Of a stretch of DNA of 64,000 bases, positions 567 through 15,245 are shown piece after piece. Source of the DNA: Subsaximicrobium wynnwilliamsii (GTDB lineage: Bacteria; Bacteroidota; Bacteroidia; Flavobacteriales; Flavobacteriaceae); assembly GCF_007997225.1 (NCBI RefSeq), contig NZ_VORM01000023.1:1-64000 (forward strand). Reading direction: 5' to 3'. Every line of letters begins with the position of its first letter. The first letter of the stretch is position 1. The translations under genes and the position numbers were made by a program. The notes beneath the pieces are model-generated. The model was not told the origin of the DNA. It did no database searches and saw nothing but the letters and a program-made list of their open reading frames with translations.

Positions 567-699
567 TTACAACGTTTTTGTATATGGTTTGTTGCGTATT
601 TTAAGCACTTAATTTAGTAAATAATTACCAACCAAGAAAGTCCGCGAGGACTTTCGTAAGTAAGCTAGAATTAGCAATAAATTATATACGGTGTTACCA
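567..699. repeat. attC-like folded repeat B
   Basis: Left core AAC is at 571-573 and right core GTT at 693-695. Arms GTATATGGTTTGTTGC and GCAATAAATTATATAC pair. An internal perfect hairpin AAAGTCC-GCG-AGGACTTT sits near 641-657. It lies just downstream (minus strand) of the RDD gene, where the attC of a coding cassette would be. Confidence 0.6.
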
Positions 700-708
700 T
701 ACGTTTTT

Positions 709-1170: not shown

Positions 1171-1464
1171 TTAATAATCTGTTGCAATTATAAGATTTGG
1201 TTTTTCTCCAACTTCTATTTTTCTGTAGTTTACAAAAGCTCCACATTCCAAGATTGCATTAAACAATTCAGGAACATTTTCTTTTAAGTATTTTCCGTTT
1301 TCAATTTGTAAAATGGTCGGTTCATCAGATAGTTCATCAATGCAGTCAATCCAAGCATCCATATTTTCTCCATAATAATCTGGAAAGTGCATTTCTTTTT
1401 TAAATTCAGCGTGAAATGTCTTCCAATTTTTTAATCTTTTTCCTTTAATTATGAATGTTTGCAT
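1171..1464 (-). CDS. Barstar-like ribonuclease inhibitor
   Basis: The 97-residue protein matches the barstar fold. The segment FPDYYGENMDAWIDCIDEL (27-45) is the counterpart of the barnase-binding helix and loop, with D36, W38 and D40 in the place of the acidic and aromatic contact residues of barstar. The start at 1464 (MQTFIIKG) was chosen because upstream codons would run into the folded repeat; this leaves 20 bases between the GTT core and the ATG, as in a cassette gene. Barstars bind and block small guanyl-specific RNases in the cytoplasm. No barnase-type toxin is present here, so this is a stand-alone inhibitor, perhaps protecting against imported nuclease toxins. It forms a two-gene cassette with the RDD protein. 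Confidence 0.8.
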   Translation of the reverse strand: MQTFIIKGKRLKNWKTFHAEFKKEMHFPDYYGENMDAWIDCIDELSDEPTILQIENGKYLKENVPELFNAILECGAFVNYRKIEVGEKPNLIIATDY

Positions 1465-1480
1465 TTCGTTCTTAAATGTA

Positions 1481-1612
1481 TGGTAACGCTCTTGAGTATG
1501 ATTAGTTGCGTGTCTCAAGCAGTAAATTTAGCAAATAAAAACGAACTAGAGAATCCGCGAGGGTTTTCGGAAAAAAAACAGGCCAAGCAATTAATTATAC
1601 GCGATGTTGTAA
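1481..1612. repeat. attC-like folded repeat C
   Basis: Left core GGTAAC ends at 1487 and right core GTT is at 1606-1608. Apart from a few bases it is a copy of repeat A. Its left flank GTATGGTAAC is the inverse of GTTACCATAC beside repeat B, which delimits the barstar-RDD cassette. Confidence 0.6.
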
Positions 1613-1952
1613 AATGTAGTTTCGTGAATTTCAGACTTTAGATAAAATACTCATTTGAGTTGTGCGCTCGAGTAAGCAAATCTGCGAACTGCTTAAGTTC
1701 CGCATTGTGCATAATTCTGCATCTGGCTAAATTCCGCATCTTGAGAAATTCCGCAAACTTTATAGGATCCGTTATTTATTCCGCAAACTTGTTTTAGAAA
1801 ATCCCTCGTTAATAGACTGTTTTTGAAATAACATCCGATTTTAAATTCCGCAAACTTGCTCAAATTTCCGCAACAGTTGGTTTTCTGGAATAGTTCAGAT
1901 CAGACAGTTTTCAGAGTCTGGATTTTCGGATCTGAGTAAATTCTGCTATATT
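1613..1952. other. Cassette without a convincing gene
   Basis: No supported ORF lies between repeats C and D. The word ATTCCGCA(A) recurs near 1733, 1746, 1783, 1846 and 1866. Its ends match as GTTGTAAAAT and ATTTTACAAC, a perfect 10 bp inverted pair. Confidence 0.4.
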
Positions 1953-2083
1953 TTACAACGTTGATGTATATGAGCTGTGGCGTTTTTTAGCACGAACCTC
2001 TCCAAATATAAACTATCTTTGAGAAATCCATAAATTTTCCAAATGAACACAGACCAAGCCATAGCTTATATACGGTGTTGGCA
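1953..2083. repeat. attC-like folded repeat D
   Basis: Left core AAC is at 1957-1959 and right core GTT at 2077-2079. Arms GTATATGAGCTGTGGC and GCTATAAGC-type complement pair across the site. It follows the stop codon of the pentapeptide gene (minus strand) by about a dozen bases. Confidence 0.6.
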
Positions 2084-2094
2084 TTTCGTTTTTA

Positions 2095-2772
2095 TTATTC
2101 AGTTTCTATTATCCAATCATTAAATTCAGTTTGTCCAATTCCTTTTGCGGAATGATTATAATTATCAATAAAGATAAATCCATTCGTTTTTGCACCTTTA
2201 AATCTCGTTGCTTCAAAGGATACATTTTGCATAAGTGCATTAGTCAGATTAGCATTCCGAAAGTCAGAAGTTTTGATATTACTTTTTATAAACTTTGTAT
2301 TCGTCAAATCTGAATTTCTGAAATCCGCTGAAATAAAACAGTTTTTAAAGGTTATTCCTGATAGTTTCTGATTTCTCAAATCCATATTTTCCAAGTCAAT
2401 TTCTTCGAATACTACTTTTCCAGATTGTATTTGTTGTAAAAATTCCGTTTTTGATAATTGATAATCGAATGAGTCAGATTCGTTGTCTTTAATTCCGTTT
2501 AGCGTTTCATCAATTAATTCAACAAGTTCATTATGTGCATCAACAAAGTCTTTTCTAATTCCGTTAAATTTTAATTCATCCCATAGATGCTTCTCTTTCA
2601 AAGCAGGCAAACCGTCAAAACCATTCAAGTAGAAAAGAGCAATCGGTTTTAGTTGAGTAATTCCGTTTGAGTATTCAGAGTATATCTTTTGTAAAAGAAA
2701 AATATGGTCAACTTTTTCAGAAGACGGTTTTTCCTTTAATTTAGTTAGTATTTCGATTGTTTCTCGGTTCAT
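2095..2772 (-). CDS. Pentapeptide-repeat protein in a cassette
   Basis: The start at 2772 (MNRETIEIL) gives 225 residues. A longer reading frame begins upstream but passes through the folded repeat, so I reject it. Residues 1-125 are charged and probably helical. From about 130 to 200 come pentapeptide repeats of the A(D/N)LXX type (for example DLRNQ, ISADF, NSDLT, NANLT), which form a right-handed quadrilateral helix. Such repeats occur in many unrelated proteins and do not give a function by themselves. The ATG lies about 14 bases after the GTT core of repeat E and the stop lies just before repeat D, so the gene fills one cassette exactly. The N-terminal part is not recognised. Confidence 0.75.
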   Translation of the reverse strand: MNRETIEILTKLKEKPSSEKVDHIFLLQKIYSEYSNGITQLKPIALFYLNGFDGLPALKEKHLWDELKFNGIRKDFVDAHNELVELIDETLNGIKDNESDSFDYQLSKTEFLQQIQSGKVVFEEIDLENMDLRNQKLSGITFKNCFISADFRNSDLTNTKFIKSNIKTSDFRNANLTNALMQNVSFEATRFKGAKTNGFIFIDNYNHSAKGIGQTEFNDWIIETE

Positions 2773-2782
2773 CTTTAATGAA

Positions 2783-2916
2783 TGCCAACGGTTATGTGTA
2801 TGGACCGTTGCGTGTCTCACACACGAACCAATCCAAATATAGACAAACTTTTGCGCATTCCCATAATATTCCAAAAAAAGCACAGACCCAGCAATGGTCT
2901 ATACACGGTGTTAGCA
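2783..2916. repeat. attC-like folded repeat E
   Basis: Left core GCCAAC ends at 2789 and right core GTT is at 2910-2912. Arms GTGTATGGACCGTTGC and GCAATGGTCTATACAC pair with only two mismatches. It is almost identical to repeat F, 600 bp away. Confidence 0.65.
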
Positions 2917-3382
2917 CACGGTTTATTCTTTCCTTCGCTATTATTTTTTAACTACAGAATAAAGTCCTACATAATTTTATTTAGAAATCCAGGTTAAAAA
3001 TTTCCTCTTAAATTCCGCTGTTATTTTTCGCAATGAGTTTTAAAATAAACTTTTTTCAGATTTGGTAGGGAAGGGCAAAGTTTCGGTTTCGCACTTAAAA
3101 AACCAAAAAAAATTCGGTTTCTTTTCGCGGTTTTTTCCGTTAGATTTGATTTCCGCGTATATCTAAAATAAAATTTTGCCCAAACTTTGGTCAAGCACAG
3201 GTTTTTCAAGTGATGCGACTTATTATTGGAAGGCCAAGAAATAAAATTGTTCACACGAGTGATAATTCCGCTGTTTTGGTTTTTCCGTATCTATTTCAAT
3301 TTCGGTGTGGTTTTTCAGTTTCTGCTCTTAAAAATCAGAAGATTTTGTTGTTTATCTGTGTTTTCTGGAGCAGACAACTGTG
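2917..3382. repeat. Duplicated cassette body, copy 1
   Basis: This about 465 bp stretch is repeated with small differences at 3517-3986. Short ORFs on either strand do not survive the comparison: runs of A differ by two and other indels shift the frame, so the duplicated sequence does not look protein-coding. Ends match as GTTAGCACAC and GTGTGCTAAC. Confidence 0.6.
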
Positions 3383-3516
3383 TGCTAACGTTGATGTGTA
3401 TGGACCGTTGCGTGTCTCACACACGAACCAATCCAAATATAGACAAACTTTTGGGCATTCCCATAATATTCCAAAAAAAGCACAGACCCAGCAATGGTCT
3501 ATACACGGTGTTAGCA
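3383..3516. repeat. attC-like folded repeat F
   Basis: Left core GCTAAC ends at 3389 and right core GTT is at 3510-3512. The arms are the same as in repeat E. The repeat plus the following cassette body is a tandem duplicate of E plus its body, with a period of 600-603 bp. Confidence 0.65.
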
Positions 3517-3986
3517 CACGGTTTATTCTTTCCTTCGCTATTATTTTTTTCACGACAGAATAAAGTCCGACATAATTTTGTTTAAAAATCCAGATTAATT
3601 ATTTCCTTTTAAATTCCGTTGCCATTATTCGCAATGAGTTTTAAAATAATTTTTTCAGATTGTAGGGAAGGGCAAAGTTTCGGTTTCGCACTTAAAAAAC
3701 CAAAAAAAAAATTCGGTTCCTTTTCGCAGTTTTTTGCCGTTAGATTTGATTTCCGAGTATATTTAAAATAAAATTTTGCCCAAACTTTGGTCAAGCACAG
3801 GTTTATCAAGTTATGCGACTTATTATTGGAAGGCCATGAAATAAAATTGTTCACACGAGTGATAATTCCGCTGTTTTGTTTTTTTTTCCGTATCTATTTC
3901 AATTTCGGTGTGGTTTTTCAGTTTCAGCTCTTAAAAATCAGAAGATTTTGTTGTTTATCTGTGTTTTCTGGAGCAGACAACTGTGT
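3517..3986. repeat. Duplicated cassette body, copy 2
   Basis: Near-copy of 2917-3382. It ends at a left half-site GTGTGCTAAC (3983-3992) that is not followed by the rest of a folded repeat, so this marks the edge of the array. On the minus strand this edge is where an attI-type site would sit. Confidence 0.6.
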
Positions 3987-4240
3987 GCTAACTGGTTATA
4001 TGTCAACAAATATATGTGTTTAATTGTAAATTTCACGGGATAAACCAATGTTTGACTAGTATTATAAAACACCTGAACCATCATATACTGCATTTTATTC
4101 GAGATAAAAGGCATGTATTAATTTTAAGAGGTAAATATAAACGGAATGGGAGAAAGAATAAACGGTGCTTTTTGTCAACCAAATTGTCAACCAAAAAAAT
4201 AACCCATCAACCATCATGTGGTTAGTGGGTTGAATGCAGT

Positions 4241-4252
4241 GAGGAAGGGATT
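4241..4252. repeat. 12 bp copy of tRNA-Ser 3' segment (possible att relic)
   Basis: GAGGAAGGGATT occurs here and inside the tRNA-Ser T-arm/acceptor region (4424-4435) in the same orientation. Integrating elements that use tRNA 3' ends leave such direct repeats. Twelve bases is short, so this is suggestive only. Confidence 0.35.
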
Positions 4253-4383
4253 AGCTCCGCTGTTCCCATGTGGGAATCTTGAGCAAGCATAGACATCCCG
4301 AAACACGACGAAGGGTCGTGTTGGATTCTTTTTTTGAAAAAACACCTTCAAACCTTTGGTTTGGGAGTTTTTTCAAAACAAAA

Positions 4384-4410
4384 ATCCCGCAACTTTTCAA
4401 GTTGCGGGAT
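4384..4410 (-). terminator. Terminator of tRNA-Ser
   Basis: Perfect stem ATCCCGCAACTT / AAGTTGCGGGAT with a 3-base loop, followed on the minus strand by a T-rich tail. It lies about 10 bases after the tRNA 3' end. Confidence 0.75.
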
Positions 4411-4419
4411 GCCCTTTCG

Positions 4420-4504
4420 CAGAGAGGAAGGGATTCGAACCCTCGAAACGTTGCCGTTTACACGCTTTCCAGGCGTGCGCCTTCGACCGCTCGGCCACCT
4501 CTCT
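4420..4504 (-). tRNA. tRNA-Ser (anticodon GGA)
   Basis: On the minus strand the molecule opens with acceptor strand AGAGAGG, then TG and the D-arm GCCGAGCGGTCGAAGGC. The anticodon arm carries CTGGAAAGC (anticodon GGA). A long variable arm typical of Ser tRNAs follows, then the T-loop GTTCGAATC and CCTCTCT closing the 7 bp acceptor stem, with G as discriminator. CCA is not encoded. A TACTTTTG -7 box lies at 4517-4524 and a strong terminator follows, so it is transcribed alone. Confidence 0.92.
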
Positions 4505-4516
4505 ATTTTGAGTTGG

Positions 4517-4524
4517 CAAAAGTA
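4517..4524 (-). promoter_or_regulatory. -7 box of tRNA-Ser
   Basis: TACTTTTG on the minus strand, an exact match to the Bacteroidota TAnnTTTG box, placed 12 bases before the tRNA 5' end. Confidence 0.6.
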
Positions 4525-4788
4525 CAATTACCAACAGACTTAAAAAATTTTAAGGCTGCTTTTTTACGATGTACTCTCAAATAAACTAATAGTGTTAGCT
4601 AAAGTGCTTGATCTGTGCTCACACTAAAAGCCTTCCAAGGTTTAAGCTTCTTTAAAATACTTCTTGATTAGTACACTCTGTTTTGGTTCTTGATTCTTAT
4701 TTCTTGCTTCTTTATCGTTAAATGATATAAGCGCAAATAACTAAAGATCCACGTAAACCAAGCATTTAGTCGCTTTATATCCTAAATA

Positions 4789-5820
4789 TCAGCTCATTTC
4801 ACCACGCAAGGAGGTCTCAAAAATGGTCTTGAATGAGTTCATCGAGACTTCCTCGCCAAGCATGAACATCAATTTGGTCAAAGCAGCTTCTGTAGTAATG
4901 TCTTTTCCCGATGTGAGCCCAATGGCCCTTAATTGTGTACTGGTCTCATACTGGCCCATGGCGACGCTTCCACCAGAACATTGGGTCACATTGATTATGG
5001 GTATGCCTTTTTTAATGGTGGCTTTCAATAAATCAATAAACCAATCTTCCGTAGTGGTATTTCCCGCACCATAGGTCTCCAAGACAATGCCTTTAATGGC
5101 TTCGCAAGCAAACATGCCCTTGAGAATGTTTTCAGAAATACCCGGAAACATCTTGACCAATAAAATGGAAGTCTCAAATTTTTTATGCACGACCATTTTT
5201 TTTCTTGTATTCGGCACAAAAAGCGCGTCATTGTTGACTTTGAGATGCACTCCTGATTCTGCCAAATGGGTGTAATTCAACGACTCAAAAGCCTCAAAAT
5301 GCTCGGCATTGATCTTGGTGGTTCTATTGCCTCTAAACAATTTGTATTCAAAATACAGTCCCACTTCACGAATTACCGGTCGCCCGTAAGTTTGTAAGCT
5401 GGCCATTTGTATGGAGGTGATCAAATTCTCCTTGGCATCGGTTCTCAAATCCCCTATGGGCAATTGCGAGCCTGTAAAAATGATGGGCTTGGTCAAATTC
5501 TCGAACATAAAGCTTAAGGCAGATGCCGAATAACTCATGGTATCACTACCATGCAACACCACAAACCCATCAAAATCATCATAATTGCTTTCAATGAGCT
5601 CTGCAATCATGACCCAATATTCGGGCCTCATGTTACTGGAGTCGATAGGCTGTTCAAAAGAAACGGTCTCAATCTCGCAAGCCAAAAGTCGCAACTCGGG
5701 AATGCGTTTCAACAAATTCTTAAAGTCAAAACTCTTGAGCGCAGCGGTCTTGGAATCTTTGATCATCCCGATGGTGCCTCCTGTATAAATCAATAAAATA
5801 TTGGGTTGTCTTACTGCCAT
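4789..5820 (-). CDS. ansA: Type I L-asparaginase
   Basis: Hydrolyses L-asparagine to aspartate and ammonia in the cytoplasm. The 343-residue protein has the usual length. The first catalytic motif TGGTIG is at 13-18 with the nucleophilic Thr16, and the second motif HGSDTM is at 90-95. GSQLPIGDLRTDAKEN follows near 117-132. No signal peptide is present, in keeping with the cytoplasmic type I enzymes rather than secreted type II. The start codon is one base from the stop of tatD, so the two form an operon with tatD first. Confident call. Confidence 0.93.
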   Translation of the reverse strand: MAVRQPNILLIYTGGTIGMIKDSKTAALKSFDFKNLLKRIPELRLLACEIETVSFEQPIDSSNMRPEYWVMIAELIESNYDDFDGFVVLHGSDTMSYSASALSFMFENLTKPIIFTGSQLPIGDLRTDAKENLITSIQMASLQTYGRPVIREVGLYFEYKLFRGNRTTKINAEHFEAFESLNYTHLAESGVHLKVNNDALFVPNTRKKMVVHKKFETSILLVKMFPGISENILKGMFACEAIKGIVLETYGAGNTTTEDWFIDLLKATIKKGIPIINVTQCSGGSVAMGQYETSTQLRAIGLTSGKDITTEAALTKLMFMLGEEVSMNSFKTIFETSLRGEMS

Positions 5821-5821
5821 G

Positions 5822-6589
5822 TCAAATCTTGAATATCGCCTTGGAATTTTCGGTCGTGATTTCTGCTATTTTTTCTTCTGAAACTGAATAGATTTCAGCT
5901 AATTTCTCCAAAACCTTAACGATATACGCACTTTCGTTTCGTTTTCCGCGGAAGGGTTTTGGTGCCAAATACGGTGAATCGGTTTCCAAAACAATGTGTT
6001 TGAGATCAATCTGGTTTAGAAATTGATCGATCTTTCCGTTTTTAAAAGTGGCCACACCCCCAATCCCCAATGTCATATTATAAGAAATCGCTTGCCGCGC
6101 CTGTTCTAAAGTGCCTGTGAAGCAATGAAAAATTCCGAAGAGCTTTTCATCCTTTTCATCTGCCAAAATCTCGAAAATTTCGTCGAAGGCTTCCCTGCAA
6201 TGAATCACAATGGGCAAGCCATGCTGCTTTGCCAATTGAATTTGACGCCTGAAGGCCTTCTGCTGCATCGCCAATGTGGTTTTATCCCAATACAAATCAA
6301 TGCCTATTTCGCCAATGGCATAATACTGATGATTCGCCAATTGCTCCTCTACATGCTGCAATTCGGCTTCATAATTCTCCTTCACATGCGTAGGATGCAG
6401 CCCTGCCATCAAAAAAACTTGATCTGGGTGGTCCAATTGCAATTGTAACATTGCTGGAGTGTAGGAAGAATCGATTGCAGGAATAAAAAAGCGCTTGACA
6501 TTTTGTGCCTGGGCGCGGGCAATCATTTCAGCCCTGTCTTCATCAAAAGCCTCACTGTAAAGATGGGTATGCGTATCTGTAATTGTCAT
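5822..6589 (-). CDS. tatD: TatD family metal-dependent hydrolase
   Basis: The 255-residue protein is a TIM-barrel metal hydrolase of the TatD family, reported to act as DNase/exonuclease. Metal ligands are visible: H7 and H9 in TDTHTHL, the Glu of GEIGID near 100, His of IVIHCREAF near 135, His of IFHCFTG near 160, and Asp of LETDSPYLAPKPFRGKRN near 210. Full length with no truncation. It is the first gene of the tatD-ansA operon and is divergent from the retropepsin-like gene, with only 51 bases between the two start codons. Confidence 0.93.
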   Translation of the reverse strand: MTITDTHTHLYSEAFDEDRAEMIARAQAQNVKRFFIPAIDSSYTPAMLQLQLDHPDQVFLMAGLHPTHVKENYEAELQHVEEQLANHQYYAIGEIGIDLYWDKTTLAMQQKAFRRQIQLAKQHGLPIVIHCREAFDEIFEILADEKDEKLFGIFHCFTGTLEQARQAISYNMTLGIGGVATFKNGKIDQFLNQIDLKHIVLETDSPYLAPKPFRGKRNESAYIVKVLEKLAEIYSVSEEKIAEITTENSKAIFKI

Positions 6590-6616
6590 GCTACAAACTT
6601 AATGGAATTAGAACAG

Positions 6617-6624
6617 TATATTTG
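6617..6624 (+). promoter_or_regulatory. -7 box of the retropepsin-like gene
   Basis: TATATTTG, 16 bases before the ATG at 6641. It falls inside the longer reading frame that could start at 6503 or 6602, which argues for the start at 6641. Confidence 0.55.
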
Positions 6625-6640
6625 CACAAATTTAAGGCTA

Positions 6641-7084
6641 ATGGACACAACTTTGAAAAATTTCCTGCTTGATAAAGGGTACACCAAGGTAAAATTGCAA
6701 CTCACAAAAACCAACCATTTTGAAGTCAAGGCCATCATCAATGGGGTTAAGGGCTTGTTCATTTTAGACACTGGTGCTTCAAATTCATGCGTTGGTTTTG
6801 AGGCGATAAAAACCTTTAAGCTCGTTGCAGAGGATTCTGAAATCAAGGCTGCCGGAGCTGGCGCGAGTGATATGTTGACCCAGATGTCTAACAAGAATGA
6901 GATCAAGATTGGCAAATGGAAAAACAAAAAGGTAGCCTTGGTGCTGTTCAATCTTAGCCACGTCAATGAGGCCTTGATCAACCACGACGCCCAACCAGTA
7001 GATGGGATCATTGGCGCAGACATTCTCAAAAAATCAAAGGCCATTATAGATTACGATAAAAAACAGCTCTACCTCAAATTATAA
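6641..7084 (+). CDS. Retropepsin-like aspartic protease family protein
   Basis: The 147-residue protein carries the aspartic-protease signature ILDTGASNS (41-49), with D43 as the catalytic Asp, and the matching C-terminal VDGIIGADIL motif that packs the active-site fold. It is single-domain, so like retropepsins it would act as a dimer. It has no signal peptide, so it would be cytoplasmic. The start MDTTLKNF was chosen because a TAnnTTTG box lies just upstream, within the longer frame. Substrate unknown; related bacterial proteins are annotated as aspartyl proteases or clan AA proteases without known targets. Confidence 0.8.
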   Translation: MDTTLKNFLLDKGYTKVKLQLTKTNHFEVKAIINGVKGLFILDTGASNSCVGFEAIKTFKLVAEDSEIKAAGAGASDMLTQMSNKNEIKIGKWKNKKVALVLFNLSHVNEALINHDAQPVDGIIGADILKKSKAIIDYDKKQLYLKL

Positions 7085-7164
7085 ATTTTATCGCAGTAAC
7101 CAATTGGAAACTGCGTATCTTTATAGACATAATCCCTTATAATCCCTCATAATTTAATAGAAAT

Positions 7165-7800
7165 ATGCCAGATTCTATTATCATTGCCGATGATCACCCG
7201 CTTATCCTTAAGGGCTTATCTGATTTTCTTCTTGAAAAAAAATACAACGTGCTCGCGAGTGCCAAAAACGGACGGGAAGCCTACACGCTCATAAAGGCGC
7301 ATACTCCAGAAATTGCCATCCTAGACATTCAAATGCCTTTTTTAACTGGCTTGCAGGTGGCAAAAAAATGCAAGGAAGATGGCATTGAAACTCGAATCAT
7401 CATCATCACTTTTGAAAAAAGCAAGGACGTGTATGACCAAGCCAAATCTTTAGGCATTTACGGTTACATCCTGAAGGAATTTGCCATTGAGGAACTTGAA
7501 CATTGCATCTCCGACGTGATGGAAGAGCGCTCTTATTTTAGCCCTGAATTGCTAAAACACCTCGAAATCAAAGAAACCCCAAATATACTTAAGACACTAA
7601 CCGTTACCGAATTGAAGGTCTTGCATTTGGTTGCAAAAAACAATACTGCAAAAGAGATTGGGCTAAACCTTTTTATTTCAGACAGAACTGTCGAAAAACA
7701 CAAAAGCAACATTAGGGAAAAACTGAAACTGTCCTCCAATGCCCAAAGCATAGCCATATTTGCAAAAGAACATGAATCATTTTTAGCAGAATATACGTAG
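7165..7800 (+). CDS. NarL/FixJ-type response regulator
   Basis: The 211-residue protein has a receiver domain (1-120) with acidic pair D9/D10, phospho-acceptor D54 in AILDIQMP, and the conserved Lys in GYILKEF. A LuxR-type helix-turn-helix follows at 145-205 (LTVTELKVLHLVAKNNTAKEI then TVEKHKSNIREKL). No histidine kinase lies nearby, so it is an orphan. Its stop codon sits inside the first of three copies of an 18 bp dyad (7793-7810, 7929-7946, 8082-8099), of a size suited to a NarL-type dimer. I infer these are its binding sites and that it drives the short units downstream. A TATCTTTA -7-like box is at 7116-7123. Confidence 0.9.
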   Translation: MPDSIIIADDHPLILKGLSDFLLEKKYNVLASAKNGREAYTLIKAHTPEIAILDIQMPFLTGLQVAKKCKEDGIETRIIIITFEKSKDVYDQAKSLGIYGYILKEFAIEELEHCISDVMEERSYFSPELLKHLEIKETPNILKTLTVTELKVLHLVAKNNTAKEIGLNLFISDRTVEKHKSNIREKLKLSSNAQSIAIFAKEHESFLAEYT

Positions 7801-7810
7801 AACTACGTAT
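7793..7810. promoter_or_regulatory. Dyad operator, copy 1
   Basis: ATACGTAG-AA-CTACGTAT, perfect 8 bp arms with a 2-base spacer, overlapping the stop codon of the response regulator. A TTTA core of a -7-like site begins 28 bases after the TACGTA end (7837), and CTATTAAT begins 9 bases later (7846). Confidence 0.65.
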
Positions 7811-7845
7811 TGGTTCCCACGGCATAATAGTGCATCTTTATATTA

Positions 7846-7912
7846 CTATTAATTCTTTAGGGAGAATTAAATTTATCTAAAACCTGAATTGTCATTGATT
7901 CAGGTTTTTTTT
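7846..7912 (+). ncRNA. Candidate small transcript 1
   Basis: Begins around CTATTAAT after an operator and -7-like site, and ends at the hairpin AACCTGAAT / ATTCAGGTT (7881-7908) followed by eight T. No ORF of note. Predicted length about 65 bases. Could instead be the terminated 3' end of a transcript that starts upstream. Confidence 0.4.
7881..7912 (+). terminator. Intrinsic terminator after candidate transcript 1
   Basis: AACCTGAAT / ATTCAGGTT stem with a T8 tail. It also could end the response-regulator mRNA. Confidence 0.7.
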
Positions 7913-7928
7913 ATGCCTAGCTGCGAAT

Positions 7929-7946
7929 ATACGTAGTTCTACGTAT
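7929..7946. promoter_or_regulatory. Dyad operator, copy 2
   Basis: ATACGTAG-TT-CTACGTAT, perfect 8 bp arms. The TTTG of ATCTTTG begins 28 bases after the dyad (7973) and CTATTAAT again begins 9 bases after that (7982). The spacing is the same as in copy 1. Confidence 0.65.
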
Positions 7947-7981
7947 TGTTTGAGCTCCTATTATTACCCATCTTTGTAATG

Positions 7982-8051
7982 CTATTAATCAATTGCCTTT
8001 TTTATAAAGGATCAAAAATAGGCTCTGTGTTTTTTAAACCAGAGCTTTTTT
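7982..8051 (+). ncRNA. Candidate small transcript 2
   Basis: Begins around CTATTAAT and contains a small stem CCTTT/AAAGG (7996-8010). It ends at the hairpin GCTCTG / CAGAGC (8022-8045) with a T6 tail. No ORF of note. Confidence 0.4.
8022..8051 (+). terminator. Intrinsic terminator after candidate transcript 2
   Basis: GCTCTG / CAGAGC stem followed by TTTTTT. Confidence 0.65.
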
Positions 8052-8081
8052 AGTGCTATAAAAGCGCTAATCCATCAAAAT

Positions 8082-8099
8082 CTACGTAGTTCTACGTAT
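8082..8099. promoter_or_regulatory. Dyad operator, copy 3
   Basis: CTACGTAG-TT-CTACGTAT, with 7 bp perfect arms and one mismatch at the outer pair. Two -7-like sites follow: TATTTTTG at 8113-8120 and a TTTA core at 8126, 28 bases after the dyad as in the other copies. Confidence 0.6.
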
Positions 8100-8186
8100 T
8101 GTTTCACCTCCTTATTTTTGCGAATTTTACAGTGGAACTAAACCTGTAATTTTTACCGCTTATGTTCTATTAATTTGGGGAATACA

Positions 8187-8224
8187 AATCCTGGAGGTTG
8201 CCTAACTCACTTCCAGGATTTTGT
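8187..8224 (+). terminator. Hairpin in the leader of the 36-residue peptide
   Basis: AATCCTGGA / TCCAGGATT stem followed by TTGTT. The tail is poor, so it may be an attenuator or RNA structure before the small gene at 8263 rather than a full terminator. Confidence 0.5.
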
Positions 8225-8262
8225 TAAAAACAAAATCACTCACTCATTTAACACCTATAAAT

Positions 8263-8373
8263 ATGGAAACCATGAAAGACAAACAAAGCTTCACAAATAA
8301 AATATTTATTGTGGGCTTAATCTTGAGCGCCGTTTTAATCATAACCGTTAATGTCATTGTCAATTTTTTTTAA
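8263..8373 (+). CDS. 36-residue single-span membrane peptide
   Basis: ATG at 8263 opens METMKDKQSFTNKIF, then a hydrophobic span of about 20 residues (IVGLILSAVLIITVNVIV) and a short NFF end. A second ATG three codons on is also possible. It follows the third dyad operator and is closed by a strong hairpin at 8421-8456. No family recognised. A basic N-terminus plus one membrane span fits a small regulatory membrane protein; function unknown. Confidence 0.5.
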   Translation: METMKDKQSFTNKIFIVGLILSAVLIITVNVIVNFF

Positions 8374-8420
8374 GACATAAATATATCATCTAGTTAGTTT
8401 TAGTTATTTATTTGCACCGT

Positions 8421-8456
8421 AAAAGGCACAAACTTCAATTTGGGATTGTGCCTTTT
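8421..8456 (+). terminator. Terminator after the small peptide gene
   Basis: AAAAGGCACAA / TTGTGCCTTTT stem, 11 bp arms with an A/T-flanked base. Confidence 0.65.
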
Positions 8457-8667
8457 CCAATTATATAATTGGTGCTTAGCTCAAACAACTTTTACATGAA
8501 CACTGCAGCATCAAACATAAGTTGTCGTGTATAAAAAAATCTTGACACCCCGAGTGACAAGAAAAAAACATTCTAATTGATAGTTTACAGTAAACTATTG
8601 ACGAACTTAGTTCTTCTTAAAAAACAACTGTCGATTCTTCAAAAAAAAGATAGGTACTATAATTAAA
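8457..8667. other. Non-coding stretch with a perfect palindrome
   Basis: No gene seen. ATAGTTTAC-A-GTAAACTAT at 8580-8598 is a perfect 9 bp-arm palindrome of operator size, and a looser dyad CTTGACAC/GTGACAAG lies near 8551-8571. What they serve is unknown, as both flanking genes end toward this region. Confidence 0.45.
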
Positions 8668-8704
8668 AAAGCGCAATCCAAATCAATTTGGATTGCGCTT
8701 CTCT
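8668..8704 (-). terminator. Terminator of odhB
   Basis: AGCGCAATCCAAAT / ATTTGGATTGCGCT, 14 bp arms, T-rich tail on the minus strand. It may also work for + strand transcription. Confidence 0.75.
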
Positions 8705-8725
8705 TTATTCAGATAAACAATGCTG

Positions 8726-10009
8726 CTACATTTCTAAGGCACGTTTAACGTCACCATCCATCAACAAGGCTTCTGGGCTCTCAAGTGCTTCCTTAATGGC
8801 AACTAAGAAGCCTACACTTTCTTTACCGTCAATAATCCTGTGATCATAAGATAAGGCCACAAACATGATTGGTCTAATTTCCACATGGCCATCAATGGCA
8901 ACAGGACGTTCCACAATATTGTGCATTCCTAAAATGGCACTTTGTGGTGGGTTGATGATTGGGGTGGAAAGCATACTGCCAAACACGCCACCATTGGAGA
9001 TGGTAAAGGTACCGCCAGTCATTTCATCAACAGTGATCTTACCGTCACGTGCTCTAATTGCCAAGCGCTTCACTTCTTCCTCTACACCTCTAAAGCCCAA
9101 ATTTTCTGCATTGCGCATCACAGGTACCATCAAGCCTTTTGGCCCAGAAACCGCGATACTTATATCACAAAAGTCATAGCTAATCATTTCTTTACCATCA
9201 ATCATGGAGTTCACTGTAGGATACATTTCCAGTGCGCGAACAACTGCTAAAGTAAAGAAACTCATAAAGCCAAGACTAACGCCATGTTTGGATTTGAAAT
9301 CCTCTTTATATTGTTTACGCAACTCGAAGATAGGTTTCATATCCACCTCATTGAAAGTGGTCAACATTGCGGTGGTGTTTTTAGCTTCCACCAATCGTTC
9401 TGCCACTTTACGACGTAACATTGACATTTTACTGCGTGATTCGCCACGTTTGCCACCGGTTGGTGTTCCCATGGAATGCTTAGCATTTACGGCATCATCC
9501 TTAGTAACACGACCATCTTTTCCAGTTCCCTTTACGGAAGTCGCCTGCATGTCTTTCTCAGCCAAAATTTTCTTGGCCGCCGGACTTGCCACGCCAGCAC
9601 TTTTTTGACTATCTGAAGAAGCTTCCTTTTTTTCTGAATCTTCTTTTTTAGGTTTATCAGATGAGCTTTCCTTTTTTTCTGCGGAAGCATCGCTGCTTTT
9701 CTCCTCTTTTTTGGAAGCCTCTTCTTCCGATTTATCGGAAGCCTTCTTATCAGAACTTCCGCCCGGTTTTTTACCTTCTGTATCAATAAGGCATACCACT
9801 GCCCCAACCTCAACAGCATCACCAACTTCCGCTTTAAGCGTAATGATTCCGCTGGCTTCGGCCGGCAACTCTAAAGTAGCCTTATCACTATCAACCTCAG
9901 CAACCGCTTGGTCTTTTTCAACATAATCGCCATCTGAGACTAACCAATCTGCTATCTCTACTTCTGTGATGGATTCTCCTGGCGAAGGAACTTTCATTTC
10001 TAAAATCAT
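8726..10009 (-). CDS. odhB: 2-oxoglutarate dehydrogenase E2 (dihydrolipoyl succinyltransferase)
   Basis: The 427-residue protein is the core of the 2-oxoglutarate dehydrogenase complex; it moves the succinyl group from lipoate to CoA in the TCA cycle. The lipoyl domain spans 1-76 with lipoyl-Lys43 in [13 protein letters not shown] Lys/Ser/Glu-rich linker (about 80-138) is followed by the peripheral subunit-binding domain (about 140-178, [12 protein letters not shown]). The catalytic domain (from about 195) ends with SYDHRIIDG, holding the active-site His. One lipoyl domain is normal for this enzyme. odhA is upstream on the same strand, 409 bases away, with a gene relic in between. Confidence 0.95.
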
Positions 10010-10096
10010 GGGTCTTATTGTTTTATGTCTTACTTATCCCTGCGAACGCAGGACTCTTTTTATTTTGTTCTATAATTTCTCACAAGTTATGGCTAC

Positions 10097-10380
10097 TTAA
10101 TTGTTTTTATAACCAATTGGCTTGCGTTGTTTTTGTTCTGTTTCTACTTTATCTTTTTGCACTAAAAAATTGAGGGCTTCAGCAACATCATTGAGAGCGT
10201 TAGAACACCTTGCTCGGTAAAAGCGAAAGGCTTCTACTTACTGTGTTCTCCTCTTCCCAGATTCTTTAAGGTCACAATTTATGATCTTAAAGAACTGCAC
10301 TCATCATTCGTAAGTTCAATCATAAAGTCTTTTGGAAAGCGATCGCTGTTCCGTCTTACGGCCTGCTTTAAGACTCTTGT
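10097..10380 (-). pseudogene. Decayed ORF6N domain gene between odhA and odhB
   Basis: Minus-strand translation from 10380 gives RVLKQAVRRNSDRFPKDFMI then ELTNDECSSLRS, a stop, IVTLKNLGRGEHSK, a stop, then KPFAFTEQGVLTLS. This is the ORF6N domain pattern seen in many phage- and Bacteroidota-encoded proteins. A frame change then joins directly to NDVAEALNFLVQKDK and a tail ending RKPIGYKNN, the usual C-terminus of this family. Two in-frame stops, a missing 5' end and a missing middle show it is dead. ORF6N proteins are thought to bind DNA; their role is unclear. It probably inserted into, and now decays within, the odh operon. Confidence 0.75.
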
Positions 10381-10418
10381 TTCAATTTGTGACCATAGAG
10401 AATCCTTCAGCAATTGGC

Positions 10419-13187
10419 TTAAATTCTCTGATTATCCTTCTCCTTATCAAACACAAAATCAATCACTTGTTGATGGCGTTTTTTAGAACGGACTGAACTT
10501 CCCGCTGCTGGCGCTCCATAAGGACGTCTGGATGCTACCCTAAAGGTTTTCGCTTCGTCCAAATGCATCAGTAAATAACTGTAAGCCCCCATATTTCTTG
10601 GCTCTTCCTGCGCCCAAACCACTTCTTCCGCTTTATTGTATTTCTTGATCATCTCCTTAATCTGCTTCTCTGGTAATGGGAACAACTGTTCTACTCTTAC
10701 CAAAGCCACATCCTTACGCTTCAACTCTTCTCTTGCTTCATATAAATCATAATAGAATTTCCCAGTCACGAATATCAAAGACTTGACTTCCTTAACTTTC
10801 ACATTCGCATCATCAATGACCATTTGAAAACTGCCGTTGGCAAATTCATCTACTGTGGATACTACCATTGAATGACGCAACAAACTCTTCGGCGTAAAAA
10901 CAATCAATGGTTTTCTAAAATTGCCTTTCATCTGTTTACGCAATAAGTGGTACATGTTTGCTGGCGTGGTACAATCCATTACAAACATATTATCCTTCGC
11001 ACACATTTGCAAATAACGCTCCATACGCGCCGAGGAGTGCTCTGCACCTTGACCCTCATAACCGTGAGGCAACAACATGACCAGACCGTTTTGCAGTTTC
11101 CACTTATCTTCAGCTGCAGAAATATATTGGTCCATCATAATTTGTGCACCATTGCTGAAATCGCCAAACTGGGCTTCCCAAATGGTCAAGGTTTTCGGAC
11201 TTGCCATGGCATAACCATAATCAAAACCAACCACTCCGTATTCTGATAACAACGAGTTGTAAATGAAGAAGCGTCCTTGCTTATCACTAATCTCATTCAA
11301 TAGCACAATCTCCTCCTCACTATCTTCCACTTTTATGACTGCGTGACGGTGAGAAAAAGTACCACGCTCTATATCTTGACCAGACATTCTCACATCGTAT
11401 CCTTCTTCCAAGAGCGTCCCATAAGCCAAATGCTCGGCCATAGACCAATCCAGTTTATCTTCATCAAACATGGTTTGTCTGGATTGTACCAAACGTTCTA
11501 TTTTTTTGATAAATTTCTTGTCTTCAGGCAAATTGCTTATCACTTTGGCAATCTTTTCGAGACCTTCCTTGGAGTAGGTGGTGTCGATTTTCGTAATCAT
11601 TTGGTCTTCTGTAACATTGTTATAGTTCTCCCACTCACCTTGCATGAACGGGGTAATGACCGTCTTATCTATTTTTCTGGAATCCTCAAGATTTTCCTCG
11701 AGTTTGTCTTTATATTCCTTTTCTAATTTATCAACATGATCCTCATCAATAACCTTTTCAGAAATGAGCTGTTCTGCATAGATATCTCTTGGGTTTTTGT
11801 GATTTGAAATAGCCCTATACAACTTTGGTTGGGTAAAGCGTGGTTCATCCCCTTCATTATGACCATATTTTCTATAGCCCAATAAATCAATAAACACGTC
11901 ACGTTTAAATTTCATTCTAAAATGAAGCGCAAACAGCATAGCATGTACCACAGCTTCTGCGTCGTCTGCATTAACGTGCAATACCGGCGATAAGGTCACT
12001 TTAGCCACATCGGTACAATAGGTACTTGATCTTCCATCTAGGTAATTTGTGGTAAACCCAATTTGGTTATTGACCACAATATGTATGGTGCCGTTGGTTT
12101 TATAGCCCTCCAGATTAGACATTTGAATGATCTCATATACAATGCCTTGACCCGCTATGGCTGCATCACCATGAACAATGATTGGCAAGACTTTTGAAGG
12201 ATCATCGGCATATTTATCATCCTGTTTGGCTCTTGTAATACCTTCAACCACAGCGCCAACAGCTTCTAAATGCGATGGATTGGGAGCGATATTAAGGTTG
12301 ATTTCATGGCCAGCTTGCGTTTTACGGTTACTGGTCCAACCCAAGTGGTATTTGACGTCGCCATCAAAAATTTTCTGTTCGTAGTCTTTTCCGTCAAATT
12401 CACTGAAAATATCCTTGGCCGATTTACCGAAGATATTGGTAAGCGTGCTCAAGCGCCCACGATGCGCCATGCCCATCACAAATTCTTTGACTCCATGATT
12501 GGCAGCGTTTTCAATAAGCGAGTCCAATGCTGGGATCAAGGTTTCATTACCTTCCAATGAAAAACGTTTTTGACCTACGTATTTGGTATGTAAGAAGCTT
12601 TCAAAAGCGACGGCTTCATTTAATTTTTTTAGAATGTGTTTTTTTTCGTCGGAAGAAAAATCGGGCTGAAAATCATTAACGTTGAGTTTTTTCTGAATCC
12701 ACTCAATCTCATCAGGGTTTCGAATGTACATGTACTCAACGCCAATCGCATCGCAATAGATGCTTTTGAGGTGCCTGATGATTTCTTTTAAACTTTGTTT
12801 CCCAATGCCCAAAATATCGCCAGCACTAAACTCTGTTTCCAAATCAGATTCTGACAAACCAAAATTTTGAATATCCAAGGTTGGCGAATATTGGCGCCGC
12901 TCCCTTACCGGATTGGTTCTGGTAAAAAGGTGCCCTCTATTTCTGTAGCCATTGATCAATTTAAGCACCTGAAATTCCTTGGTAATGCCTTCTGAAACAT
13001 CGTCACAGGAAAAAGCTTCTGTAGGTATGTCTTCAACCATCTCAGAGCCACTTTCGCTACCAAAGTCGAAACCTTGGAAAAAAGCCCTCCAACTTGGCTC
13101 AACAGAGTCTGGGTTTTTTAAATATTGATCGTATAATTCGGCGAAATATGCTGTATGTGCTGCGTTTAAAAAAGAGTATTTATCCAT
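10419..13187 (-). CDS. odhA: 2-oxoglutarate dehydrogenase E1 component
   Basis: The 922-residue thiamine-diphosphate enzyme decarboxylates 2-oxoglutarate and passes the succinyl group to E2. The start at 13187 (MDKYSFLN) was chosen; an upstream in-frame ATG at 13217 adds ten residues that look like leader sequence. The N-terminus FLNAAHTAYFAELYDQY matches the E2-docking segment of OdhA proteins. The TPP/Mg site GDAAIAGQGIVYE lies in the first half and the transketolase-like C-terminal domain in the second. A TATTTTTG -7 box at 13226-13233 drives the operon. The spacing to odhB is unusually large because of the ORF6N relic. Confidence 0.95.
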   Translation of the reverse strand: MDKYSFLNAAHTAYFAELYDQYLKNPDSVEPSWRAFFQGFDFGSESGSEMVEDIPTEAFSCDDVSEGITKEFQVLKLINGYRNRGHLFTRTNPVRERRQYSPTLDIQNFGLSESDLETEFSAGDILGIGKQSLKEIIRHLKSIYCDAIGVEYMYIRNPDEIEWIQKKLNVNDFQPDFSSDEKKHILKKLNEAVAFESFLHTKYVGQKRFSLEGNETLIPALDSLIENAANHGVKEFVMGMAHRGRLSTLTNIFGKSAKDIFSEFDGKDYEQKIFDGDVKYHLGWTSNRKTQAGHEINLNIAPNPSHLEAVGAVVEGITRAKQDDKYADDPSKVLPIIVHGDAAIAGQGIVYEIIQMSNLEGYKTNGTIHIVVNNQIGFTTNYLDGRSSTYCTDVAKVTLSPVLHVNADDAEAVVHAMLFALHFRMKFKRDVFIDLLGYRKYGHNEGDEPRFTQPKLYRAISNHKNPRDIYAEQLISEKVIDEDHVDKLEKEYKDKLEENLEDSRKIDKTVITPFMQGEWENYNNVTEDQMITKIDTTYSKEGLEKIAKVISNLPEDKKFIKKIERLVQSRQTMFDEDKLDWSMAEHLAYGTLLEEGYDVRMSGQDIERGTFSHRHAVIKVEDSEEEIVLLNEISDKQGRFFIYNSLLSEYGVVGFDYGYAMASPKTLTIWEAQFGDFSNGAQIMMDQYISAAEDKWKLQNGLVMLLPHGYEGQGAEHSSARMERYLQMCAKDNMFVMDCTTPANMYHLLRKQMKGNFRKPLIVFTPKSLLRHSMVVSTVDEFANGSFQMVIDDANVKVKEVKSLIFVTGKFYYDLYEAREELKRKDVALVRVEQLFPLPEKQIKEMIKKYNKAEEVVWAQEEPRNMGAYSYLLMHLDEAKTFRVASRRPYGAPAAGSSVRSKKRHQQVIDFVFDKEKDNQRI

Positions 13188-13225
13188 TATAGGGTGTAAG
13201 TCATTTGGCTTCAACAAAATTTAAC

Positions 13226-13233
13226 CAAAAATA
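13226..13233 (-). promoter_or_regulatory. -7 box of odhA
   Basis: TATTTTTG on the minus strand, about 39 bases before the chosen odhA start. Confidence 0.5.
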
Positions 13234-13300
13234 CAACTTTTACCTATATTAGAGGCAGTTTTGGTATATTTATAGACCTTTTTAACTCAAATTTTGAATT

Positions 13301-13834
13301 ATGGAATTTTTAAGACTGCCTGCCATATTGAAATTAAGTACCGTCTCTGTCTTTCTGCTCTTATCCCATTTCATTGGCGCCCAAGACTTGCGTCAAAACA
13401 CTGATTTTTGGAGTCATGTGCGATTTGGTGGAGGCGTTGGGCTTAATTTTGGCGACGGGTTTTTTAGTGGCACTTTGGCACCAAGTGCCATTTATGATTA
13501 TAACAGGCAATTTTCAATGGGCATAGGACTCAACGCGACTTACAGCAGCCAAAAAAACGTATTCAACGCCACCGTTTTGGGCGGAAGCTTGATTGGCCTG
13601 TTCAACCCCATTGATGAAATCCAGGTTTCTGCAGAATTTGAACAACTCAACGTGAGCCAGAATTTTGACGACCCCGTTTTTAGAGATGACAATTATTGGT
13701 ATCCAGCCTTATTTATGGGCGTTGGCTATCGTTCAAGAAACGTGACCATAGGTGTGCGTTACGATTTGCTTTATGACGATAACAAAAGTATATATGCAAA
13801 CGCCTGGGCGCCATTTATGCGCTTCTTTTTTTAA
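13301..13834 (+). CDS. Predicted outer-membrane beta-barrel protein
   Basis: The 177-residue protein opens with a signal-like hydrophobic stretch (about 10-27, ending IGAQ) and continues with alternating hydrophobic/polar strands rich in Gly and aromatic residues (FGGGVGLNFGDGFFSG, GIGLNATYSS, GVGYRSRNVTIGVRYDLLYD), ending in FFF. The aromatic end is usual for outer-membrane barrels. Homologues beside odhA are often labelled alpha-ketoglutarate decarboxylase in databases, a label that seems to come from the neighbour and that nothing in this sequence supports. Divergent from odhA. Function unknown. Confidence 0.7.
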   Translation: MEFLRLPAILKLSTVSVFLLLSHFIGAQDLRQNTDFWSHVRFGGGVGLNFGDGFFSGTLAPSAIYDYNRQFSMGIGLNATYSSQKNVFNATVLGGSLIGLFNPIDEIQVSAEFEQLNVSQNFDDPVFRDDNYWYPALFMGVGYRSRNVTIGVRYDLLYDDNKSIYANAWAPFMRFFF

Positions 13835-13905
13835 GACACCAATCACTGCGCATTGAAAAGAAGTATTTGCAAATCTATTCGTGATCATTAGTAAGCGCCG
13901 TGGCT

Positions 13906-14259
13906 TTAACTCGAGTGCTTATTCCTTAGCCAGACTTTTTGCCATTCGCGCTGCAAAATCAAGAAACTCACTTGTTCTGATAATTTCACAGGATCACTCC
14001 CATCCAAGCTTCTGATCTTTTCTTCGGAAACATCTATGATGTAAAGCAGGTTGAGATAATCGGCAAATTTAGAGGCAATCAATTTATATACGGTTTCGTG
14101 AAGCATGAATTTTAAACTCGACGGAAGGATGTCCAGCTCAAAATCGAGATCGATATTCGCCAATAAAAAATCCTTGTTGATTTGGACAATGAGTTTGTGG
14201 TAGAGTGCTAATTCTTCCGCCTGTTCAATAAGCTCGTTAAAATGCGCTGGTACCATCAT
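13906..14259 (-). CDS. Hypothetical protein downstream of polyprenyl synthase
   Basis: The 117-residue protein is predicted mostly helical and acidic in the middle (DLDFELDILPSSLKF), with no signal peptide or membrane span. Its ATG overlaps the last base of the polyprenyl synthase stop, so it is translationally coupled and co-expressed. I do not recognise a family. Confidence 0.7.
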   Translation of the reverse strand: MMVPAHFNELIEQAEELALYHKLIVQINKDFLLANIDLDFELDILPSSLKFMLHETVYKLIASKFADYLNLLYIIDVSEEKIRSLDGSDPVKLSEQVSFLILQREWQKVWLRNKHSS

Positions 14260-15233
14260 TACACGTCCCTTTTCATCAAACCCTTGCCAAAGGTCTTCAA
14301 AGCCGCCTTCCCTTGCTCAGAAATTTCGATACCCTCCAACACCGCAAAGGCTTTTTCGGTATAACGTGAAATCTCTTGACTTGTAGCTTCCGCAGCCGCA
14401 CTTGAGACAAATAACTGCTTTACGGCTTCTATTTTATCTGAAGGGTCTGATGGGTTGATCCCATAAAGATGCTCCAATTGCCGCCTATCTGAAACATTCG
14501 AGAACTCCAGCGCCTTCAAGTATAAAATGGTTTTTTTATTTTCAATGATATCTCCACCAACCTGCTTGCCAAAAGTTTCTGGGTCGCCAAAAGCATCGAG
14601 ATAATCATCTTGAAGCTGAAACGCGATGCCCAAGTTTTTTCCGAAATCGTAAATCGCTTTTTGGCATGCTTCCGAAGCATTAGCCACAATGGCACCCATT
14701 TGCATGGCTGCACCAACCAAGACTGCAGTTTTGTACTCAATCATTTTGAGATATTCTGCAATGGTCACATCGTCGCGGGTTTCAAAATCCACATCGTATT
14801 GTTGGCCTTCACAGACTTCTAAAGCTGTTTTGCTAAAAAGTTTCGCCAAATCCCTAAACGTTTTTGGCTCGTAATTCTCAAACAATTGGTAGGCCATGAT
14901 AAGCATGGCATCACCAGACAAAATCGCGGTATTGACGTCCCATTTTGTATGTACCGTTTCTTGGCCTCTTCGCAGTGGCGCAGCGTCCATGATATCATCA
15001 TGCACCAACGAGAAATTGTGAAAGACCTCCACACTCAAGGCTGCATCCATGGCTTTTTTATAATCACCACCAAGAATCTCGGTGGTCATGAGTGTTAAAA
15101 TGGGTCTGAGCCGCTTTCCGCCCAATTGCAGGATGTATTGAATGGGCTCATACAGCGCTTTGGGCTCCTTGGGCTCCACAAAATCACTGAGGTAAGTCAC
15201 GAAGGCATCGTGGTAGGATTCTATTGTTTGCAT
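14259..15233 (-). CDS. Polyprenyl (geranylgeranyl/farnesyl-type) diphosphate synthase
   Basis: The 324-residue trans-prenyltransferase joins isopentenyl diphosphate to allylic diphosphates. The first Asp-rich motif is DDIMD (79-83) and the second is DDYLD (209-213); GGKRLRP at 38-44 is also typical. The chain length of the product cannot be settled from these motifs; in this phylum such enzymes supply quinone and carotenoid pathways. A TATTTTTG box (15238-15245) ends only four bases before the ATG, so the message may be leaderless. First gene of a two-gene operon. Confidence 0.9.
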   Translation of the reverse strand: MQTIESYHDAFVTYLSDFVEPKEPKALYEPIQYILQLGGKRLRPILTLMTTEILGGDYKKAMDAALSVEVFHNFSLVHDDIMDAAPLRRGQETVHTKWDVNTAILSGDAMLIMAYQLFENYEPKTFRDLAKLFSKTALEVCEGQQYDVDFETRDDVTIAEYLKMIEYKTAVLVGAAMQMGAIVANASEACQKAIYDFGKNLGIAFQLQDDYLDAFGDPETFGKQVGGDIIENKKTILYLKALEFSNVSDRRQLEHLYGINPSDPSDKIEAVKQLFVSSAAAEATSQEISRYTEKAFAVLEGIEISEQGKAALKTFGKGLMKRDV

Positions 15234-15237
15234 GCTG

Positions 15238-15245
15238 CAAAAATA
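15238..15245 (-). promoter_or_regulatory. -7 box next to the polyprenyl synthase start
   Basis: TATTTTTG on the minus strand, four bases upstream of ATG 15233. Confidence 0.5.

Follow-up and report, generated by a model that had tools for sequence, protein, structure and literature searches.

A response regulator gene followed by a row of predicted small RNAs in Flavobacteriaceae, and the same RNA family behind other regulators

A gene for a NarL/FixJ-type response regulator in Subsaximicrobium wynnwilliamsii is followed directly by a row of three predicted promoters, each preceded by the same dyad. The locus is very probably a self-contained regulatory module, consisting of the regulator, the promoter row, two small RNAs, the mRNA of a transmembrane (TM) peptide, and an RNA that is common to several sensors. 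Sibling RNAs driven by a response regulator are a known kind of system; the best reading of the present one is a new small-RNA family coupled to several sensors. This RNA family was found in about a third of the family genomes sampled. Comparison of the loci points to a single RNA signal open to activation by several sensors, the RNA being the putative common output of at least two further regulators, each of which has a palindrome of its own, placed at almost the same distance.

Results

The regulator locus and its three dyads

The window, i.e., the whole stretch of DNA that was analysed, comprises 64,000 nucleotides (contig NZ_VORM01000023.1, positions 1 to 64,000), and its locus is part of a 4.9 Mb genome in 132 contigs. 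Placement in the Flavobacteriaceae agrees with the named orthologues of the regulator. The regulator ORF has both a receiver and a GerE DNA-binding domain, and thus belongs to the NarL/FixJ response regulators. No kinase ORF adjoining it was seen in the ORF list for positions 1 to 16000. On its 5′ side lie a retropepsin-like protease ORF and then TatD and asparaginase genes; 3′ of the array, on the opposite strand, is a 2-oxoacid dehydrogenase E2 gene (sucB-like). Elsewhere in the window, a unit of about 600 bp occurs in tandem repeats at 2783–3992, in pieces that are 86–100% identical, and a 133-nt repeat has copies at 124–256 and 1485–1617. The features of the array are collected in Table 1.

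Table 1. Positions in the window of the regulator gene and of the features read in the array behind it.
Feature	Position	Strand	Remarks
NarL/FixJ-type response regulator (receiver + GerE)	7165–7800	+	Response_reg E 1.6e-24; GerE E 8.7e-14
Dyad 1	18-mer 7793–7810; 16-mer core 7794–7809	+	-51 to -36 of unit 1; predicted regulator site
-7 element CATCTTTA, unit 1	7833–7840	+	two bases off TAnnTTTG
Predicted small RNA 1	7845–7914	+	5′ end ACUAUUAAU; GGG-loop hairpin; terminator stem 7879–7908; T tail; z -3.92
Dyad 2	18-mer 7929–7946; 16-mer core 7930–7945	+	-51 to -36 of unit 2
-7 element CATCTTTG, unit 2	7969–7976	+	one base off TAnnTTTG
Predicted small RNA 2	7981–8052	+	5′ end GCUAUUAAU; CCUUU/AAAGG hairpin; terminator stem 8021–8046; z -3.00
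Dyad 3	18-mer 8082–8099; 16-mer core 8083–8098	+	-51 to -36 of unit 3
Weak -7 element GAATTTTA, unit 3	8122–8129	+	read by eye; predicted start 8134
Predicted 5′ leader, unit 3	8134–8222	+	displaced CTATTAAT at 8167–8174; z -2.27
36-aa single-TM peptide ORF METMKDKQSFTNKIFIVGLILSAVLIITVNVIVNFF	8263–8373	+	kin ORF in 58/62 loci
Hairpin AAAAGGCACAA...TTGTGCCTTTT	8421–8456	+	by eye, absent from hairpin scan; possible end of unit 3

The preliminary description had reported three identical dyads within 310 bp right behind a NarL-type regulator, the first lying over its stop codon. This arrangement was confirmed, dyad 1 overlapping the TAG stop (7798–7800). Identity holds for the exact 16-mer TACGTAGNNCTACGTA, which occurs three times, but the third copy has one mismatch to the 18-mer. 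The constant spacing noted for the first two copies was also observed: in both, the base in front of CTATTAAT, which is the predicted start, is 35 nt from where the 16-mer ends. When up to three mismatches to the 18-mer were allowed, the window gave 3 matches against 0.06 expected, and none of 100 shuffles reached 3. The exact 16-mer has four copies in the 4.9 Mb genome, three of them at the window locus, and a control pattern, the 16-mer written backwards, has no exact copy there. A chance origin of the window dyads was ruled out by these shuffles and by the exact-copy control. At two mismatches the backwards control was commoner in the genome than the dyad (13 versus 7), so only exact or near-exact dyads are meaningful.

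A genome search for the dyad, as had been proposed, returned a single other exact copy (locus L008, 5914–5929), which ends 96 bp 5′ of an ORF for a 240-aa protein with a signal-peptide-like start (6026–6748). This secreted-looking protein is 64% identical to the product of a gene behind the regulator-RNA unit of L216, a locus described below; a secreted-looking protein thus adjoins such sites twice. Also in L008, the ORF translation at 4766–5047 has an ENPRGF stretch in common with the ORF at the window repeat 124–256. Together with the neighbouring GCCTAAC/GCGTTAGG sequences, this may point to gene-cassette (attC-like) repeats.

A scatter of the dyad away from promoters had been named beforehand as an observation that would speak against shared control. 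For genus relatives, 35 loci were read, namely two arrays (L112 and L141) and 33 regions outside arrays. The extra dyads were mostly intergenic, with two inside an ORF as called by a simple ORF finder (L117, L129), but they varied from species to species. As they differ between species of the genus, a wider regulon is not conserved. A conserved wider regulon as the main function was rejected, no gene common to the 35 loci being seen.

Promoters and units of the array

Flavobacterial sigmaA promoters have a box TAnnTTTG at -12 to -5, according to the sections of PMC9723704 at hand. In 113 units, A was found at -11 in 111, and T at -8, -7, and -6 in 110, 112, and 107, respectively. Position -12 was G in 53, T in 42, C in 16, and A in 2, and position -5 was A in 84 and G in 26. 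The nearly invariant A at -11 and TTT at -8 to -6 fit the published box; with G the commonest base at -12 and A at -5, the element would be a variant of it.

Start, hairpin and terminator suggest that units 1 and 2 are terminated small RNAs of one family, each about 70 nt long. The hairpin loop of predicted small RNA 2 is without GGG. In unit 3 the dyad and the weak -7 element keep the geometry when read by eye, the predicted start again being 35 nt behind the dyad, and CTATTAAT lies 32 nt further downstream (offset 67). The leader of this unit has a hairpin at 8187–8220 with a poor T tail, a possible attenuator.

The array in orthologous loci

Scanning with the regulator returned 76 loci. The 61 with at least 48% identity (L031–L091) were analysed; the other 15 were weak or partial matches. 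With patterns of the TACGTA or TACGTG form and one mismatch allowed, a dyad was found behind the regulator stop codon in 55 of the 61 orthologous loci and in the window, giving 97 units in 56 loci. No dyad was found under these patterns in 6 of the 61, and two to four copies were present in 26 of 62 loci. All unit counts given in this work are inflated by near-identical relatives. When a GCTATTAAT-like start was searched for over 50 positions with at most two mismatches, the distance from dyad to start was exactly 35 nt in 54 of the 63 units that had one. The central four bases of the dyad vary among genomes and are mostly alike inside one locus. The longest array among the loci read is that of L237 (genome G187), with six dyad units, one copy being without GGG in its loop.

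Downstream of the regulator, 58 of 62 loci have a hydrophobic ORF of 25–75 aa. The reverse strand of these stretches gave such an ORF in 7 of 62, and shuffled sequences in a mean of 8.8. All 58 of these TM ORFs have, within the last 11 residues, an Asn directly followed by a hydrophobic residue; on the reverse strand this was so in one locus. Loci of the Ulvibacter and Altibacter type have a single dyad, often TACGTG-N4-CACGTA or TACGTG-N4-TACGTA, and then a small TM ORF, with no RNA between. The simplest history would be an older locus of regulator and TM peptide to which RNA units were added later, and the arrays hint at such growth by duplication from the simpler locus.

Phylogenetic co-occurrence of regulator and dyads had been expected if the regulator controls the units, and the array does track the regulator over many genera. 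Shared control of the three short units by the adjacent regulator, as first proposed, is thereby well supported at the level of genome comparison.

A family of structured RNAs

Alignment A1 contains 54 of the 97 units; those with more than one mismatch in GCTATTAAT were dropped, as were one hairpin-less unit and three by hand. In A1, GCTATTAAT is almost invariant and is followed by a short hairpin and a terminator; the 5′ end GCUAUUAAU of the RNA is likewise nearly invariant. GCTATTAAT is more than a promoter element: L038 and L046 have it 60 nt downstream of the dyad, where it is presumably internal to the RNA. The terminator stem had changes on both sides in 11 of 11 pairs in A1. For the UAGGG hairpin, both-side changes occurred in 6 of 7 pairs among 13 distinct variants, against a shuffled mean of 1.8, and covariation was 0.474 against 0.241 in shuffles. 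Both stems thus have support from compensatory changes. At least four pairs next to the loop were present in 57 of 102 candidate units (shuffled mean 3.0). Of 17 distinct variants with at least three pairs, 13 make up alignment A2; as these variants were picked for pairing, the paired percentage is biased upward, and the both-side changes less so. Of the 13 aligned variants, 12 have the loop UAGGG and one has AAGGG. One GGG loop per RNA is the rule; first units like those of L038 and L046 have two GGG hairpins, and some units have no GGG in the loop, window unit 2 included.

The covariance model R1 was trained on units that include those of the window and L031, and the genomes searched may overlap the training loci. 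R1 matched in all 23 genomes of the genus. The search of 159 genomes from the family, which was taken as Flavobacteriaceae from named regulator orthologues, gave 116 matches in 56 genomes; 93 of the 116 lay downstream of the best regulator homologue, at most 2 kb away and on the same strand (50 genomes). The regulator itself was found in 82 of the 159 (E 1e-40). RNA and regulator were both present in 53 genomes, the RNA only in 3, the regulator only in 29, and neither in 74 (Fisher p 3e-17 for co-occurrence, uncorrected for kinship). The 29 of 82 regulator-bearing genomes were without an R1 match at E 0.001. Of 393 genomes from the order, 9 contained a strict 27-mer core with two mismatches, and all of these belong to the same family. 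The pattern is so strict that it misses many true copies, even in the own genome.

Within the own genome, units 1 and 2 were the sole R1 matches below E 0.02. At E 5 there were 21 matches, namely units 1 and 2 and 19 others, of which 8 were inspected. Two of these weak matches, L178 (contig C30, about 90152; E 0.02, with kinase-like and receiver-like frames downstream) and L181, begin with an exact GCTATTAAT. No palindrome was seen at the usual distance in either; they may be remote copies of the RNA. A permissive Rfam search of window positions 6500–9000 and 20 loci gave no match at the gathering score except tRNA genes, and weak matches (e.g., psbA-2 and rli40, E about 0.003) fell in or near array regions. 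Neither the RNA family, nor the array, nor the sharing between regulators was found described in those parts of the open-access literature that were surveyed.

Mode of action of the RNAs

CsrA was found in none of the 56 carrier genomes with a model that finds it in 3 of 14 controls, E. coli included, and Hfq in none of the 56 with a model that finds it in 5 of 14 controls. Both are therefore excluded as partners at the sensitivity of the search. Pairing with mRNAs is our first choice for the mode of the RNA, and slightly favoured; capture of an RNA-binding protein comes second and is distinctly less probable.

According to the latter explanation, which we regard as rather doubtful as the main function, the small RNAs would mainly soak up a protein through their UAGGG(A) loops in the manner of RsmX/Y/Z or CsrB, the partner not being CsrA. 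The NarL-type regulator, the upstream palindrome and the multi-copy RNAs all fit, and so does a loop that remains UAGGG in 12 of 13 variants while its stem covaries; an ANGGA motif is known in RsmA-binding RNAs from the available text of PMC2375449. The same text gives several GGA motifs as needed, whereas here there is usually one loop per RNA and some copies lack GGG altogether. The absence of CsrA from the 56 genomes weighs in the same direction, and the 5′ nonamer is conserved at least as well as the loop. Several GGA motifs in the hairpin loops of one RNA, as in the Gac/Rsm RNAs, were as a rule not found; a palindromic site with activator geometry is present, to which the NarL-type regulator would bind.

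The same RNA behind other regulators

Twenty-three R1 matches lay off the regulator locus, and 20 were fetched (G081:C21, G067:C2, and G116:C42 were omitted, the last being later read as L275). In 14 of the 20, the RNA was directly behind another regulator gene. The neighbour of 11 copies (L220, L221, L226–L229, L231–L235) is a PAS-GerE gene of about 256–260 codons (the start being uncertain in L228), with PAS and GerE domains checked in four of the eleven (L220, L235, L221, and L226). The palindrome in these loci is TACTCAA-N-TTGAGTA (TACTCAAAATGAGTA in L226), 35 nt before the RNA.

A search with PAS-GerE gave 41 matches in 39 genomes, and 30 were read as loci. The palindrome was present in 30 of 30 and the RNA start also in 29 of 30. 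From start to start, palindrome and RNA were 50 nt apart in 28 loci and 49 nt apart in L288. In L275 both lie about 250–300 nt behind the PAS-GerE gene; counted within 260 nt, the figures are 29 and 28. In L290 the palindrome is present and the RNA start absent in the 260 nt read. The own genome had no PAS-GerE homologue at E 1e-40. By their coordinates, the elements lie in series in genome G100: first the regulator and an RNA, then the PAS-GerE gene and again an RNA.

The remaining regulator neighbour is a second response-regulator-like gene, with the RNA behind it in L216 and L217 (one genome) and in L225. Here TACGG/CCGTA palindromes, imperfect in L225, lie 34–35 nt before the RNA. L225 is above the Response_reg cut-off of Pfam and L216 below it (19.2 versus 30.2 bits), and no GerE domain was seen in the second regulator of L216 or L225. 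As for the other fetched copies, L218 and L223 are the original locus minus the regulator gene, in L224 the regulator lies 8 kb upstream of an imperfect TACGTA dyad, and neither palindrome nor regulator was seen in L219, L222, and L230.

When PAS-GerE lies upstream, then, the palindrome changes, while its position and the RNA are unchanged. Since the palindrome tracks the adjacent regulator and the RNA is constant, the dyad would be the site of the neighbour, and one RNA would serve several sensors. Binding assays aside, this natural swap is the best available evidence that the dyad belongs to the adjacent regulator, and it favours the control by that regulator which the preliminary description had held most likely.

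A global regulator distinct from the neighbour could be proposed as the owner of the dyads, with the adjacent response regulator as a bystander; this seems quite improbable. In L218 (genome G083) dyads and RNAs are intact where no regulator homologue reaches E 1e-40, so another protein may bind there, and dyads occur at unrelated genes in genus relatives. A global regulator would, however, hardly account for a palindrome that switches with the class of the adjacent regulator at constant RNA and spacing, nor for L223, where the regulator is missing, no first dyad is left and the second one is imperfect. A further point concerns the recognition helix, which is VEKH in the NarL-class regulator and VDKH, VHKH, or IHKH in L236, L238, L240–L243, L245–L247, and L250. 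In all 10 loci (in L247, for one of three dyads) such a variant is accompanied by a half-site TGCGTA or TACGCA, a match that is suggestive only, as the loci are mutual relatives. It is a possible specificity switch.

The 14 of 20 off-array copies directly behind another regulator gene also bear on the proposal that the units are mere leaders, attenuators or dispersed repeats and no independent small RNAs. The TM-ORF units do share the 5′ end and the leader hairpin, but many units end in a T-tailed terminator without a recognisable ORF of their own, and the lack of any further R1 match below E 0.02 in the own genome does not suit a dispersed repeat; we consider this proposal very unlikely. That the short units are translated into peptides is hardly credible. 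Some units do have AGGGAGAATTATG, an ATG following a purine-rich run, but ATG is missing in many, no shared frame was seen, and the stems covary instead; ORFs in units 1 and 2 were rejected on these grounds.

Discussion

The control of the array by its adjacent regulator can be put together as follows. A kinase encoded elsewhere would phosphorylate the NarL-type response regulator. Geometry and comparison of loci point to binding of the regulator at the palindrome TACGTA-N4-TACGTA, centred near -43 (-51 to -36), from where it would activate the promoter row just behind its own gene. Two of the promoters would give the terminated small RNAs of about 70 nt and the third the mRNA for the single-TM peptide. 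The small RNAs probably act post-transcriptionally and without Hfq, and would expose two conserved elements predicted to be single-stranded, namely GCUAUUAAU at the 5′ end and the hairpin loop UAGGG. By analogy with MgrB, a membrane sensor may be subject to feedback from the TM peptide.

A broader proposal, which we put forward tentatively and hold to be on the improbable side, is that sensors with different input domains and palindromes each own a copy of the RNA just behind their regulator gene, and that the RNA is a shared second messenger, free of Hfq and CsrA, which works via an RNA-binding protein.

Post-transcriptional control in Flavobacteriaceae is little explored. The present RNA family can be traced through dozens of genera, each copy with a predicted start, end, activator, and site, so that its targets and a helper protein are directly testable. 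Moreover, one RNA behind several regulators, each with its own copy and palindrome, amounts to an experiment set up by nature, in which it can be followed how an RNA output that already exists is taken over by regulators.

Several known systems resemble the module. GacA, like the present regulator, is of the NarL type. The GacA - RsmX/Y/Z system of Pseudomonas has in common with it a response regulator, a palindromic upstream site, and sibling small RNAs with GGA motifs, as far as the sections of PMC2375449 at hand describe it; control of Rsm RNAs by a response regulator is known from the same source. The present system differs in that no CsrA was found in the 56 carriers, the RNAs stand in tandem directly behind the regulator with one GGG loop each as a rule, the array contains a TM-peptide ORF, and other regulators carry the same RNA.

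The Qrr RNAs of Vibrio depend on Hfq and sigma54. In contrast, no Hfq was found here, the predicted promoters are sigmaA-like, and the regulator is NarL-type. LuxO - Qrr is alike in that a response regulator drives multi-copy sibling RNAs with a conserved core, and both Qrr and Csr/Rsm are response-regulator-driven sibling RNAs in the portion of PMC4211561 consulted; the Qrr genes are distal according to the same portion, whereas the window RNAs lie behind their regulator.

The csRNAs of Streptococcus are controlled by CiaR, an OmpR-type regulator that uses direct repeats, and a further regulator carrying these RNAs is not known to us. They resemble the present RNAs as siblings, some of them in tandem (PMC4211561, same portion). 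Rfp18 of Flavobacterium psychrophilum is likewise a conserved flavobacterial small RNA; compared by description only, it has a third stem-loop and is conserved in the genus, according to the available sections of PMC9723704.

For the third unit, the known parallel is the MgrB type, in which a small single-TM peptide is under a response regulator. The predicted small single-TM peptide in the response-regulator array described here would resemble it in this respect.
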